Shown here in pieces: positions 32,235 through 62,940 of a DNA stretch of 64,000 nucleotides. The stretch comes from Planctomycetota bacterium (GTDB taxonomy: Bacteria > Planctomycetota > Phycisphaerae > Sedimentisphaerales > Anaerohalosphaeraceae): positions 1 through 64,000 of the forward strand of contig VGXU01000002.1 of the NCBI GenBank assembly GCA_016873215.1. The letters are read 5' to 3'. The stretch's first letter is position 1. Each line of letters starts with the position of its first letter. The notes below the pieces were generated by a model. That model did no database searches. It was given only the letters and a program-made list of their open reading frames with translations, and was not told the DNA's origin. The position numbers and the translations under genes were made by a program.

Positions 32235-32264
32235 TTGAACTGTAATAGCACATTAGCGTATTAT
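32235..32264 (+). promoter_or_regulatory. Promoter of the putative small RNA
   Basis: TTGAAC and TATTAT separated by 18 bases, 20 bases after the mgtC stop. Predicted start near 32271. Confidence 0.55.
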
Positions 32265-32270
32265 ACAGTG

Positions 32271-32364
32271 AGCAAAGAACATTACCCTCCTTCGTCTAAA
32301 GCCAGGTTCTTAACCTGGACCTGCAAAGCGGTGGTTCCCTCCTTACCACCGCTTTCTCTTTTTT
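32271..32364 (+). ncRNA. Putative small RNA with two CCCTCCTT (anti-Shine-Dalgarno) motifs
   Basis: About 94 bases between a sigma70-like promoter and a strong intrinsic terminator, with no plausible ORF. It contains a single-stranded 5' segment with CCCTCCTT (32285-32292), a perfect hairpin CCAGGTT-CTT-AACCTGG (32302-32318), and a terminator stem AAAGCGGTGGT/ACCACCGCTTT whose 9-base loop is exactly TCCCTCCTT (32336-32344), followed by CTCTTTTTT. Exposed CCUCCUU matches the 16S anti-Shine-Dalgarno sequence and would pair with AAGGAGG ribosome sites. Design resembles C-rich-loop regulatory RNAs such as the cuckoo family, but no sequence family is recognised. Confidence 0.6.
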
Positions 32365-32788: not shown

Positions 32789-32992
32789 ATGGATAATATC
32801 TGCGCCAGGATGGGTCAGGCTATCCGCAAAATCAGAGAGAAAAAGGGATTGAGCCAGGAAAAGCTGGCGGACATGGCGGATTTACACCGCACTTACATTG
32901 GCCAAGTCGAACGGGGAGAGAAAAATCTGACACTCCGCAGTCTTGAACGCATCGCCAAAGCCCTCGGCGTCAACATAAAGGATTTGCTGTGA
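32789..32992 (+). CDS. XRE-family HTH regulator, probable controller of the restriction-modification system
   Basis: 67 residues forming a single helix-turn-helix: AIRKIREKKGLSQEKLADM, DLHRTYIGQVERGEKNLTL. The size and position match restriction-modification controller (C) proteins. AGGAG lies eight bases before the ATG. It overlaps the methylase gene start (GTGA). Confidence 0.88.
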   Translation: MDNICARMGQAIRKIREKKGLSQEKLADMADLHRTYIGQVERGEKNLTLRSLERIAKALGVNIKDLL

Positions 32993-33915
32993 CCGACACA
33001 CTGCTCAAAACAAAGTTCGCCAAACCTTTCCTAAAATGGGCCGGCGGAAAAGGGCAATTAGTCGATGAAATCGATTCTCGCCTGCCGCAGGAATTAAAAG
33101 AAGGCAAAATTAAAACCTATATTGAGCCGTTTATCGGGGGCGGGGCCATTTTCTTTCATATTGCGCAGGAATATCCGGACATAGACAACTATGTTTTAAT
33201 CGATGTAAATAAAGACCTCGTAAATTGCTACAAAGCAATTCAGACCAACTTAGAACAGGTTATCAGCGAGTTAAAATTGTTCGAAGACCTGTATTTTTCG
33301 ATCCCAACTGATGAAAAGAGGCAAGCATTATTCCTGAAAATCCGGAAATCGTTTAATCACGAAAAGGATAATTCCTATTCTTCGCAAACAGCGGCAAAAC
33401 TGATCTTTTTGAACAAAACGTGTTTCAATGGTCTCTACCGTGTCAATCAAAGCGGCCTGTTTAATGTGCCTTTCGGAAAATATGGCAAGCCCAACATTTG
33501 CCCGGAAGACAATCTGAGAAAAGCTTCTGACCTTTTACAGAAAGCGACCATTCTTTGCGGCGATTTTTTCTGCTGCAGGGAATACGTCGATAAAAACAGC
33601 TTTATTTACTTTGACCCGCCTTATCGGCCTATCTCAAAAACGGCCAGCTTTACATCATACGCAAAAGGTGATTTTTCGGAAGAAGACCAAATACGTCTTG
33701 CCGGATTTTGTAAATGGCTATCGAAAAGAAATGTGAAATTTCTTTTAAGCAATTCCGACCCGAAAAATGAAAATCCTAAAGATTCTTTTTTTGAAACCCA
33801 TTATCCGAAATCAGAGGGCTTCATTATCGACCGAGTAAAAGCGAGTCGAGCGATAAACTGCAAAGGCGATAAAAGAGGGCAAATTAACGAATTGATAATT
33901 ACAAATTATTCTTAA
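32989..33915 (+). CDS. Dam-family DNA adenine N6-methyltransferase
   Basis: 308 residues, GTG start overlapping the stop of the regulator. D12-class alpha methylase: PFLKWAGGKGQLVDEID, YIEPFIGGGAIFFHIAQ (SAM site F-x-G-G-G), LIDVNKDLVNCYKAI, TCFNGLYRVNQSGLFNVP and catalytic FIYFDPPYRPI (D-P-P-Y). Closest in style to M.DpnII/M.MboI, which make GATC N6-methyladenine; specificity is inference. Coding is more AT-rich than the neighbouring housekeeping genes, in line with transfer. Confidence 0.93.
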   Translation: MTDTLLKTKFAKPFLKWAGGKGQLVDEIDSRLPQELKEGKIKTYIEPFIGGGAIFFHIAQEYPDIDNYVLIDVNKDLVNCYKAIQTNLEQVISELKLFEDLYFSIPTDEKRQALFLKIRKSFNHEKDNSYSSQTAAKLIFLNKTCFNGLYRVNQSGLFNVPFGKYGKPNICPEDNLRKASDLLQKATILCGDFFCCREYVDKNSFIYFDPPYRPISKTASFTSYAKGDFSEEDQIRLAGFCKWLSKRNVKFLLSNSDPKNENPKDSFFETHYPKSEGFIIDRVKASRAINCKGDKRGQINELIITNYS

Positions 33916-33928
33916 AGAAGGAGCAAAT

Positions 33929-34693
33929 ATGGCACACGATGATTCTTGGGCAAAAATTTTCAAAGACAACAAAATCCAATCTCATGACTTTGACAAAAAG
34001 CCATATTATTTAACTGCCGAAAAAATCAAACGATCCTGTCAAGATTTTCAAAACACAGGTGAAAAAGAAGTGCGTATTCTATGTAAGCAGGACACGAGAG
34101 ATAGTCGCCCCAAGTGTTTTGTCGAGAACAATCTATTTCTTCTTCCTGTAAAGAACGGCGAATATGTAATTGTGAAGGGCGAAGGTTATGTGGATATCCC
34201 CGAAATAAAAACAACACAGCAGGTATATCTTTCGAAATTAGATTTTTCTTTGGATACTTCTAAGATTGGCGATTCCGAAATGCAACATTTAGATTTCGCT
34301 TATGCATCAAGCTTAATAAGAACGTTTATGAATGATGATAGTTTAGTGCTTACAATAAGAGGAAGAAAATATACGCCAGAATTCACTTTTAATATAGGTC
34401 AACATTTTATCAAAGTTCTTAGTGTTCAAACAGAAGTAGATGCCGGCTATGAAGGCAGAGACAAAGTTGTTTTGATAGAAGCAAAACGGCATAGTGCCAC
34501 AGATGTTATAATTCGGCAATTGTATTTCCCATACAAACAATGGCAGGCCCACACCAAGAAAGAAGTTTACCCCCTCTTTTTCCAGAAAGAAGGAGATACT
34601 TATTCTATCTGGCAGTTTAAATTCAATAATCCCTCCGATTACAACAGTATAAAATTAGTTCGATCTGGGAAATACAGAATATCCACAAAATGA
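33929..34693 (+). CDS. Putative type II restriction endonuclease
   Basis: 254 residues, AT-rich coding, AAGGAG before ATG. A PD-(D/E)xK-like core is visible: TEVDAGYEGRDKVVLIEAKR followed by RQLYFPYKQWQ, i.e. D ... E-A-K with a downstream Q-x-x-x-P. The position between two methylase genes, as in MboI-type systems (M-R-M order), supports the assignment. It does not resemble the R.MboI or R.DpnII sequences I know, so it may be a different nuclease family with another specificity. Ends in an ATGA overlap with the next gene. Confidence 0.7.
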   Translation: MAHDDSWAKIFKDNKIQSHDFDKKPYYLTAEKIKRSCQDFQNTGEKEVRILCKQDTRDSRPKCFVENNLFLLPVKNGEYVIVKGEGYVDIPEIKTTQQVYLSKLDFSLDTSKIGDSEMQHLDFAYASSLIRTFMNDDSLVLTIRGRKYTPEFTFNIGQHFIKVLSVQTEVDAGYEGRDKVVLIEAKRHSATDVIIRQLYFPYKQWQAHTKKEVYPLFFQKEGDTYSIWQFKFNNPSDYNSIKLVRSGKYRISTK

Positions 34694-35499
34694 ATAACAC
34701 CTCCGATAATTTTATAGCAGAATCAACGACCGTGTGGTCGTTTCCGGTGCGGGGGACGTGGGCGACGCACAATAACAAGTACCGGGGGAATTTTGCGCCG
34801 CAGTTGGCACGCAACGTCATCGAGACGTATTCCGAGCCGGGGGAAGTTGTGCTGGACCCGATGGCCGGGGGCGGGACGACACTGATAGAGGCGAAACTAT
34901 TGGGCCGGAGGTTTATCGGCTGCGATATAAATCCAAACGCAGTCAAACTCTGTGAAGAAGCGGTGAAGTTTGACATAGAAGAACACAAGAACGCAAGAAC
35001 ACAAGAACCCAGGAAGTCGAATAACTATAAACTACTGTGTGCTGATGCGCGGGATTTGTCGTTTTTGAAGAACGCGAGCGTGGATTTGATTTTGACGCAT
35101 CCGCCGTACCTGAATATCATCCGCTACAGCGACGGCATCGCGGGCGATTTATCATCCGTTTCGTCGGTGAAGAAATTCTGCGGCGAGATGCGCATCGTCG
35201 CGGGCGAACTGCTGCGGGTACTCAAGCCCGGCCGGTACTGCGCGATTCTGATGGGCGACACCCGGCGGGGCAGGCATTTTGTACCGCTGGCGTATCGCGT
35301 GATGGATACATTTCTTGACGCGGGGTTTATCCTCAAGGAAGACATCATCAAGGTGCAGCATAATTGCTCGGCCACAAGCCGGTGGGTCGGCAAGGCGAAG
35401 AAGGCGGGGTTTTACCTGATTATGCATGAGCATCTGTTTGTGTTTCGCAAAGCCGACAGAGATGAAGATTTAAGCCGGGTCAAAGAATCGTGCAGGTGA
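34690..35499 (+). CDS. Second DNA methyltransferase (N4/N6, TSPPY-type class)
   Basis: 269 residues. SAM motif VVLDPMAGGGTTLIEAKLLG and GCDINPNAVKLCEEAV precede catalytic DLILTHPPYLNIIRY. Start overlaps the nuclease stop by ATGA. Its codon use is strikingly G-ending and GC-rich (for example 34740-34930) compared with the AT-rich nuclease just upstream, so the two may have different origins. Residues about 97-112 (EEHKNARTQEPRKSNN) are encoded by a AAGAACACAAGAACCCAGG-type dispersed repeat that also occurs near 62900. Confidence 0.85.
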   Translation: MNNTSDNFIAESTTVWSFPVRGTWATHNNKYRGNFAPQLARNVIETYSEPGEVVLDPMAGGGTTLIEAKLLGRRFIGCDINPNAVKLCEEAVKFDIEEHKNARTQEPRKSNNYKLLCADARDLSFLKNASVDLILTHPPYLNIIRYSDGIAGDLSSVSSVKKFCGEMRIVAGELLRVLKPGRYCAILMGDTRRGRHFVPLAYRVMDTFLDAGFILKEDIIKVQHNCSATSRWVGKAKKAGFYLIMHEHLFVFRKADRDEDLSRVKESCR

Positions 35500-45380: not shown

Positions 45381-45443
45381 AATATCCGGCGTTGAATCCC
45401 GAAGGGATGACATAAAATAGCCGGGGGTGTAAACCCCCGGAAT
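45358..45443 (+). repeat. Composite palindromic dispersed repeat, copy A
   Basis: CCCCGAAGGGG ... ATAAAAT ... ATCCCGAAGGGAT ... ATAAAATAGCCGGGGG-TGTAAA-CCCCCGG. Two types of palindrome joined by an ATAAAATAG linker; related copies at 56024-56113, 60093-60187, 58276-58373 and 62769-62868. The 3' end of the preceding gene runs into it. Confidence 0.75.
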
Positions 45444-60000: not shown

Positions 60001-60187
60001 ATGCAGCACAGCCGCCCTCGGCTGTGTCTCTGTCATTCCCGAGAAGGCGGGAATCCAGTGCTGACAGGATGGGCCTTAGCCCACCGATTCCTCAGTCCCG
60101 GAGGGACGATATAAAATAGCCGGGGGCGTAAGCCCTTGGAAAAAAAGAATTGTCTTGTTTCTCAAGCCCCGAAGGGGCGACACGGCA
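60001..60187 (+). repeat. Dispersed repeat cluster between tilS and the oxidoreductase, copy D
   Basis: GCACAGCCGCCCTCGGCTGTG, GTCATTCC...GGAATCCAG, a TGGGCCTTAGCCCA hairpin, then CCCGGAGGGACGATATAAAA, TAGCCGGGGGCGTAAGCCC and CCCCGAAGGGGCGACA. Three of the window's repeat families in a row. Confidence 0.8.
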
Positions 60188-60219: not shown

Positions 60220-61872
60220 ATGAACAATAAACCCAAAATCGTCATCATCGGCGGTGTCGCCGGCGGGGCCTCCGCAGCCGCACGCGCACGCCGACTCAGC
60301 GAATCCGCCGAAATCATTCTTCTCGAACGCGGCCCCCATATCTCCTTCGCAAACTGCGGCCTGCCGTACCATATCGGCGGCGTCATCAAAGAACGACAAA
60401 AGCTCCTCGTTCAGACCCCCGAGGCGATGAAAAAACGATTCAACATCGACGTCCGCGTCAACACCGAAGCCGTCAAAATCGACCTCGCCCAAAAACACGT
60501 CGTCATAAAAAACCGCGCCGATAATCGTGAATATACGGAAACGTATGATTACCTCATCCTCAGTCCCGGCGCCGAACCCATTCGCCCGCCGCTTCCCGGC
60601 GCCGACGGCCCAAACGTCTTCACACTCCGCAATATGGCCGATATGGATGCCATCATCCAATTCATCCAAACCATTAAGCCGCGGCGAGCCGTTGTTGTTG
60701 GCGGCGGCTACATCGGCCTCGAAATGGCCGAAAATCTCATCCATCGCGGCATCCCCGTCACCCTCGTCGAACTCGAAAAACAGGTGATGTCGCCCGCTGA
60801 CCCCGAAATGGCGTTTCCCCTCCATCAGGAATTAAAACTGGCTGGCGTTGACCTGCGCCTCGGTGTCAGCGTCACGGCGATTCACGGCGGCGGCAATGCG
60901 TTGTCCGTCCAGCTCAGCAGCGGCGACCAAATCGCCTGCGGGCTGGCAATTCTGTCCGTCGGTGTTCGCCCAGATTCAAAACTCGCCAAAGATGCCGGCC
61001 TCAATGTCGGCCCGCGCGGTGCCATTGCCGTTAACAACTTTATGCAGACCTCCGACCCGGCCGTCTATGCTGTCGGCGATACCGTCGAAGTCGAAGATTT
61101 CATCGGTGGATTCAAAACACAAATTCCCCTCGCCGGCCCCGCAAACCGACAGGGACGCATCGCCGCCTCACACATCCTCGGCCAAAAACTCCAATATAAA
61201 AAAACACAGGGTACCGCCGTCTGCAAAGTATTCAATCAGACTATCGCCATGACGGGCCTCAACGAAAAAACACTCGTCCGGCAAAATATCCCCTATGAAA
61301 AAATCTATGTCCATCCCGCCGACCACGCATACTATTACCCCGGCGCATCACCCATCAGCCTGAAATTATTATTCGACCCTAAATCCGGCAAAATCCTCGG
61401 TGCCCAGGCCGTCGGCTCCGCGGGCGTGGATAAACGCATCGATGTTTTAGCCGTCGCCATTCGCGCCGGCATGACCGTCTATGATTTGGAAGATTTGGAA
61501 TTGTGCTACGCGCCGCCGTATGGCTCCGCCAAAGACCCTGTCAATTACGCCGGCTTCGTCGCCGCTAACGTCCTTCGCGGCGACGTCAAACTCTGCCACG
61601 CCGCCGAAACAATCAATCTCAAAGAAAATCAACTCCTCCTCGATGTCCGCACGGCAGGGGAGGTCCAGGCTGGAACCATTCCCGGCGCAATCAGCATCCC
61701 CATCGATGAATTGCGAAATCGCGTCGGCGAACTGCCAAAACACAAAGAAATCCTCGCCTTCTGCCAGGTCGGTCTGCGCGGCTATCTCGCCTGCCGAATC
61801 CTGTCCCAAAACGGCTTCAACTGCCGCAATCTCTCCGGCGGATACAAAACCTGGACCGCCGTCGTGTCATGA
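60220..61872 (+). CDS. CoA-disulfide reductase-like flavoprotein fused to a rhodanese domain
   Basis: 550 residues. Residues 1-445 are a class of FAD/NAD(P)H oxidoreductase with a single active cysteine: IVIIGGVAGGASAAARARRL, SFANCGLPYHIGG (C43-like), AVVVGGGYIGLEMAENL, DPAVYAVGDTVEVEDF and the C-terminal dimer domain. Residues about 455-550 are a rhodanese domain with loop AFCQVGLRGYLACRIL. The fusion matches CoADR-rhodanese proteins such as Npsr/CoADR-RHD, which reduce CoA persulfides or polysulfide and suit anaerobic sulfur metabolism. Substrate is inference. Confidence 0.92.
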   Translation: MNNKPKIVIIGGVAGGASAAARARRLSESAEIILLERGPHISFANCGLPYHIGGVIKERQKLLVQTPEAMKKRFNIDVRVNTEAVKIDLAQKHVVIKNRADNREYTETYDYLILSPGAEPIRPPLPGADGPNVFTLRNMADMDAIIQFIQTIKPRRAVVVGGGYIGLEMAENLIHRGIPVTLVELEKQVMSPADPEMAFPLHQELKLAGVDLRLGVSVTAIHGGGNALSVQLSSGDQIACGLAILSVGVRPDSKLAKDAGLNVGPRGAIAVNNFMQTSDPAVYAVGDTVEVEDFIGGFKTQIPLAGPANRQGRIAASHILGQKLQYKKTQGTAVCKVFNQTIAMTGLNEKTLVRQNIPYEKIYVHPADHAYYYPGASPISLKLLFDPKSGKILGAQAVGSAGVDKRIDVLAVAIRAGMTVYDLEDLELCYAPPYGSAKDPVNYAGFVAANVLRGDVKLCHAAETINLKENQLLLDVRTAGEVQAGTIPGAISIPIDELRNRVGELPKHKEILAFCQVGLRGYLACRILSQNGFNCRNLSGGYKTWTAVVS

Positions 61873-62768: not shown

Positions 62769-62940
62769 TTAGCCCGTCAGGGCGACATAATGTAGCCACG
62801 GGCGTCAGCCCGTGGTCAAAGAATCAATAAATGTATTCCCCGCCCCCGCAGGGGGCGACATAAAACCGCCGCCACCCGCCACTCTTCTCCCTTCATTCTT
62901 GAGTTCTTAAGTTCCTGGGTTCTTGTGTTCTTTTTTCTAT
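62769..62940 (+). repeat. Composite palindromic dispersed repeat, copy E, plus TTCTTG repeats
   Basis: AGCCCGTCAGGGCGACATAA, CCACGGGCGTCAGCCCGTGG, AAAGAATCAATAAA, CCCCCGCAGGGGGCGACATA, almost the same as 58276-58373. It is followed (62895-62935) by TTCTTGAGTTCTTAAGTTCC and TGGGTTCTTGTGTTC, the complement of the sequence inside the 34690-35499 methylase gene. No gene in 62663-62962. Confidence 0.75.

Follow-up and report, generated by a model that had tools for sequence, protein, structure and literature searches.

The 94-nt segment at positions 32271-32364 of the analysed window, a 64,000-nt (64-kb) stretch of DNA from a planctomycete of the family Anaerohalosphaeraceae, raises the question of whether a small RNA that displays the anti-Shine-Dalgarno (anti-SD) sequence CCCUCCUU twice is encoded there and, if so, what such an RNA would do. 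It also raises the broader question of why anti-SD regulators are retained in genomes that have few strong SD sequences. Post-transcriptional regulation has received little study in planctomycetes, and Hfq was detected in none of the 8 genomes examined, with control genomes giving the expected result. In the present study, comparative sequence analysis indicated that the segment is a real, previously uncatalogued and conserved small RNA gene, and the existence of this gene with its ECF-type promoter is close to certain. Moreover, with a probability of roughly two in three, the product would be a stress-induced, Hfq-independent and trans-acting sRNA, driven by an ECF promoter, that blocks strong ribosome-binding sites (RBSs).

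The predicted fold of the 94-nt RNA has a minimum free energy (MFE) of -27.4 kcal/mol (z = -4.6), and 0 of 200 shuffled sequences were as stable. At the DNA level, CCCTCCTT was read at 32285-32292 and at 32337-32344, with no third copy in the 64 kb. Because two copies were observed and 1.7 are expected by chance, the placement of this motif is informative and its count is not; the surprising part is that both copies fall within a single 60-nt stretch. All of the features described here are on the plus strand. The first copy lies in an unpaired 5' segment, CAUUACCCUCCUU (32280-32292), which is antisense to AAGGAGGGUAAUG. Hairpin 1 (32302-32318) is formed by 7 bp between CCAGGUU (32302-32308) and AACCUGG (32312-32318); it is conserved across the family, including a double change from UA to AU, and the MFE of the isolated sequence favours a shifted 6-bp register. 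Hairpin 2 is the terminator stem (32325-32355), in which AAAGCGGUGGU (32325-32335) pairs with ACCACCGCUUU (32345-32355) over 11 bp, with compensatory changes at 3 pairs and 97% of cells paired. The stem closes a 9-nt loop, UCCCUCCUU (32336-32344), which harbors the second anti-SD motif, and is followed by a U-rich termination tract (32357-32364) that has its counterpart in the T tract of family members. The earlier note had described a hairpin, a terminator and two anti-SD motifs, one filling the 9-base terminator loop and the other in the unpaired 5' part, and all of these are borne out by the sequence and the fold.

The long RNA is present in a single copy in its own genome by DNA search, which gave significant matches in 16 further genomes of the Anaerohalosphaeraceae, and the covariance model R1 detected it in 35 of the 39 genomes of this family of the Sedimentisphaerales (E <= 0.001). 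The matches of R1 in other families of the order were weak (E between 1e-6 and 0.003), and hardly any were found beyond it; the weak matches L057, L060-L067 and L088-L090 are left out of the family counts. Among 16 distinct sequences, 97% of the cells pair, four pairs have changed on both sides and every slid control fails. Furthermore, CUCCU of the 5' segment is kept in all 37 curated members and CUCC of the terminator loop in 33, a count that comprises 29 members scored by script and four whose folds have an extra 3' hairpin drawn last; the loop lacks CUCC in two f6 genomes, a G016 paralog and G032. A member is also present in the complete genome G013. The stems diverge widely among members while the motifs persist, and an exposed C/U-rich motif conserved on varying stems is what is expected of an anti-SD trans-acting sRNA. 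The earlier note had claimed a planctomycete small RNA and had named the loss of the loop motif from varying stems as the observation that would speak against it; the comparison revealed covarying stems that retain the motif, and the compensatory changes together with the occurrence in the family uphold the claim of a conserved gene. No Rfam family matched at gathering, and the sole match at E <= 5 was sub-threshold and on the opposite strand. Pattern matches in Chryseobacterium, Saprospirales, Atlanticothrix and a Syntrophomonadaceae MAG gave no model match and were set aside as chance. Two variants, L051 (G016:C68:24437-24521) and L053 (G032), carry GGGAA instead of CUCC in the terminator loop; L051 lies about 500 nt from the standard copy in G016, and L053 retains the ECF motif.

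The promoter had been read in the earlier note as TTGAAC-18-TATTAT. These hexamers are present (32235-32240 and 32259-32264, a 9/12 match), but as a sigma-70 promoter they were dropped, since one such match was found in the region against 2.0 expected by chance and the conserved signal is the ECF motif. The promoter is better read, from its conservation, as an ECF-sigma-type element, TTGAAC-N16-CGTA (32235-32260, plus strand), with GAAC at 32237-32240 and CGTA at 32257-32260. GAAC-N16/17-CGTA occurs upstream of 34 of the 37 members (N16 in 20 and N17 in 14), compared with a mean of 0.13 and a maximum of 2 in shuffled upstream regions, and only one occurrence, at 26, was found at any other spacing scanned from 8 to 29. 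The same 34 members thus carry the combination that marks ECF-regulon promoters, a -35 AAC core and a -10 CGT(A) separated by 16-17 nt. Relatedness does not explain the motif, because these members span about 17 genera in three families and their spacers have diverged. It was missing from L058, which is cut by a contig end, from L073, which has AAAC for GAAC, and from L051, the G016 copy. From the promoter geometry, transcription is predicted to start 6-10 nt past CGTA (32266-32271, plus strand), a zone that includes the position 32271 given in the earlier note. The motif has the same form as the SigW promoter of Bacillus subtilis, TGAAACN16,17CGTA (PMC2375139).

An autoregulated ECF sigma gene sharing the motif was sought and rejected, as none of the 18 sigma70_r2 genes of the own genome has GAAC-N16/17-CGTA upstream. 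A genome-wide ECF regulon was likewise rejected, as the motif was not enriched before genes overall (10 sites versus 2-10 for control word pairs). The hsp20 genes of the window genome, of G007 and of five g12 genomes do have the motif upstream, and those of five other genomes do not; at most, this hints at a protein-damage regulon. In most Anaerohalosphaeraceae genomes examined, a sigma-54-like TGGCAC-N-TTTGTA box precedes hsp20 (L116, L299-L309), and where both elements occur the ECF motif comes after the TGGCAC box.

With regard to function, the gene would yield a small RNA of about 95 nt that stands alone and acts in trans, and since transcription would proceed from an ECF-sigma promoter, the RNA is presumably made under some stress. 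CCCUCCUU would be displayed in the single-stranded 5' end and in the terminator loop, and either copy could, redundantly, pair with purine-rich ribosome-binding sites from the SD through the start codon (GGAGGGUAAUG). Such pairing would block the translation of strong-SD mRNAs without Hfq. The ECF-type promoter and the two RBS-complementary copies make the shut-down of translation of selected genes under stress probable, and an anti-RBS mechanism is likely on these sequence grounds. According to crude gene calls in the own genome, AGGAG lies near 10.5% of starts, as against 3.4% in the control, and AAGGAGG lies near about 0.5%, barely above the control. Few targets are expected because SD use is weak in this genome. 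Thus, regulation of many AAGGAGG-containing mRNAs, as the earlier note had supposed, is unlikely, and a small subset of strong-SD mRNAs is the likelier set of targets; the suggested titration by or of ribosomes found no support in this analysis.

The target search returned GGAGGAGGGTGATG repeatedly in every relative. A shorter RNA begins with the complement of this sequence; it consists of UUUUCAUCACCCUCCUCCGAAGCCAG, a terminator hairpin that covaries and a U tract. The model R3 of this short sibling (CAUCACCCUCCUCCGAAGCCAG-hairpin-U tract) found 1-8 copies of it per genome in 134 of 159 Sedimentisphaerales genomes. The own genome has three sibling copies, including G000:C2:89115-89173 (minus strand) on the contig of the window and G000:C3:4633-4686 (minus strand). 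The long and short RNAs have the core CAUYACCCUCCUCC in common, of which the long form retains only CUCCUCCUCC in some genera, and the complement of this core, GGAGGAGGGURAUG, reads as an SD followed by a spacer and then a start codon. The short siblings have no Rfam match, and the ECF motif was found upstream of 0 of 23. In G038 (L020), two sibling copies lie side by side.

Across 1.6 Mb of the own genome, the best match outside the RNA genes themselves was a 15-nt perfect complement of the short sibling, which precisely covers the RBS and start region of a gene for a secreted protein of 503 aa (L256, from position 827; RBS AAGGAGGGUGAUGAAAUG). At the same site, the window RNA is predicted to form 12 bp, with one G-U, over AAGGAGGGUGAU. 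This was the only strong RBS match in the 1.6 Mb examined, and the RBSs of GroEL and of an M50 protease are weaker candidate targets. A tentative extension, somewhat less probable than an even chance, is that the sibling sRNAs form an order-wide, Hfq-free network antisense to an idealised SD-to-AUG RBS, one member being ECF-driven and several others under different promoters, which would silence the strong-SD minority in weak-SD genomes. The conserved ECF-type RNA and its multicopy siblings provide an entry point in the form of loci, a promoter, covariance models and a candidate target.

That each molecule exposes the motif twice, and that a genome holds several sibling genes, would also suit a sponge or decoy. 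In such a role the CU-rich motifs would capture an RNA-binding protein of the cold-shock or S1-like kind, or would rival 16S rRNA at SD sites and thereby shift ribosome allocation globally, not on chosen mRNAs. This reading is helped by the scarcity of strong mRNA matches and by the identity of the motif to CCUCCUU, the anti-SD core of 16S rRNA. However, competition for ribosomes would matter little where SD use is weak, and many members are conserved through CAUYA, the complement to AUG, which would be superfluous for a protein site, and a sponge or decoy is considered rather unlikely. The motif is in addition exactly complementary to AAGGA, and all 8 genomes that were negative for Hfq have CsrA; the RNA might accordingly cover GGA-containing CsrA sites that overlap the SD, its pairing displacing or replacing CsrA. 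We regard such an anti-CsrA role as very unlikely, given that a GGA loop of the CsrA type is missing from the RNA itself and that no other link was found.

Blocking of ribosome sites in trans is also to be weighed against roles that would tie the element to its own locus. An mgtC-like gene (PF02308) stops about 55 nt before the RNA begins, and eight genomes from five genera and two families (L054, L055, L056, L058, L069, L073, L076 and L084) have the RNA convergent to dnaA, an arrangement that might suggest a mere conserved terminator or a cis element of these neighbours. The convergence in two families also means that the copies in different families are orthologous. Elsewhere the neighbours differ between genera, mgtC being that of the window genus, while the RNA and its promoter persist; the RNA is therefore not the leader of one gene. 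Moreover, the RNA is separated from the upstream gene by a conserved promoter of its own, and neither the loop nor the unpaired 5' segment of a simple terminator would need conservation. The RNA and dnaA form a strong predicted duplex in the own genome (-21.9 kcal/mol), but the duplex energies were not above those of shuffled controls in the five relatives with a readable dnaA start region (L054, L069 and L084 were left out, with dnaA starting at a sequence edge). Regulation of dnaA, which the adjacency and this duplex had suggested, was accordingly taken as chance, and a terminator or cis role appears highly improbable. It is scarcely credible that the conserved element is a small-protein gene on the opposite strand, of which GGAGGAGGGTRATG would be the RBS and start codon. 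The minus strand does offer a perfect SD-spacer-ATG geometry, but the T tract and the ECF motif are on the plus strand, and the antisense ORFs of the short siblings share no sequence and differ in length, the shortest having 3 codons and the longest about 50; the small minus-strand ORF was rejected as not conserved.

Anti-SD blocking has precedents among known sRNAs. Cuckoo RNAs carry a CCUCCUCCC-type anti-SD motif and, like the planctomycete RNA, CcsR1-4 of Rhodobacter join such a motif to an alternative-sigma promoter. These alphaproteobacterial RNAs have an RpoHI/RpoHII promoter and are processed from a ccaF1-sRNA operon (PMC10253847). In contrast to this ccaF1 (DUF1127) operon, the planctomycete RNA has mgtC upstream in the window and no common upstream gene in the family, and it shows neither an Rfam match nor a ccaF1/RpoH setting. 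The EcfG promoter reads GGAAC-N16/17-CGTT, whereas the planctomycete -10 is CGTA in 34 of 34 and G never precedes GAAC, which sets it apart from GsrN of Caulobacter. GsrN likewise combines ECF-sigma-type control with an exposed C-rich pairing segment; it is ECF-sigma-dependent, pairs through this segment with G-rich mRNA leaders and activates katG (PMC5869019). It belongs, however, to the alphaproteobacterial EcfG general stress system, its C-rich segment is a 5' loop and not the terminator loop, and no sequence relation between the two RNAs was found.

In anatomy and in the presence of multicopy siblings, the planctomycete RNA resembles LhrC1-5 of Listeria monocytogenes, which are induced by stress and bind targets without the need of Hfq (PMC4132741). 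LhrC has CU-rich motifs in a loop, a single strand and the terminator loop, and the planctomycete RNA has the latter two of the three. LhrC is a multicopy Firmicute RNA under LisRK two-component control, whereas the planctomycete two-hairpin form is single copy, has the conserved GAAC-N16/17-CGTA promoter and gave no Rfam match at gathering that would place it in the LhrC family. RsaE of Staphylococcus aureus and FsrA of B. subtilis block the SD through a UCCC motif (as summarised in PMC4132741); they come from another phylum, and again no Rfam match joins the planctomycete RNA to them. By analogy, the planctomycete RNA would work like LhrC and GsrN and belong to neither.

Several other elements were noted in the window. 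The RNA ends 425 nt before a type II restriction-modification operon (32789-35499, plus strand) that encodes a control protein, a Dam-family MTase, a DUF6996/DUF6997 protein matching the PADLOC REase_II model and a second MTase. Three Acido-Lenti-1 RNAs (RF01687) are present at 45395-45440, 60094-60139 and 62771-62815 (minus strand). In addition, the Rfam model of the Vibrio antisense RNA V_AS7 matched 60251-60419 (minus strand) with 98.6 bits. The matched segment is antisense to the beginning of a CoA-disulfide-reductase-like flavoprotein gene (60220-61872, plus strand), and the score probably reflects conserved protein-coding sequence.
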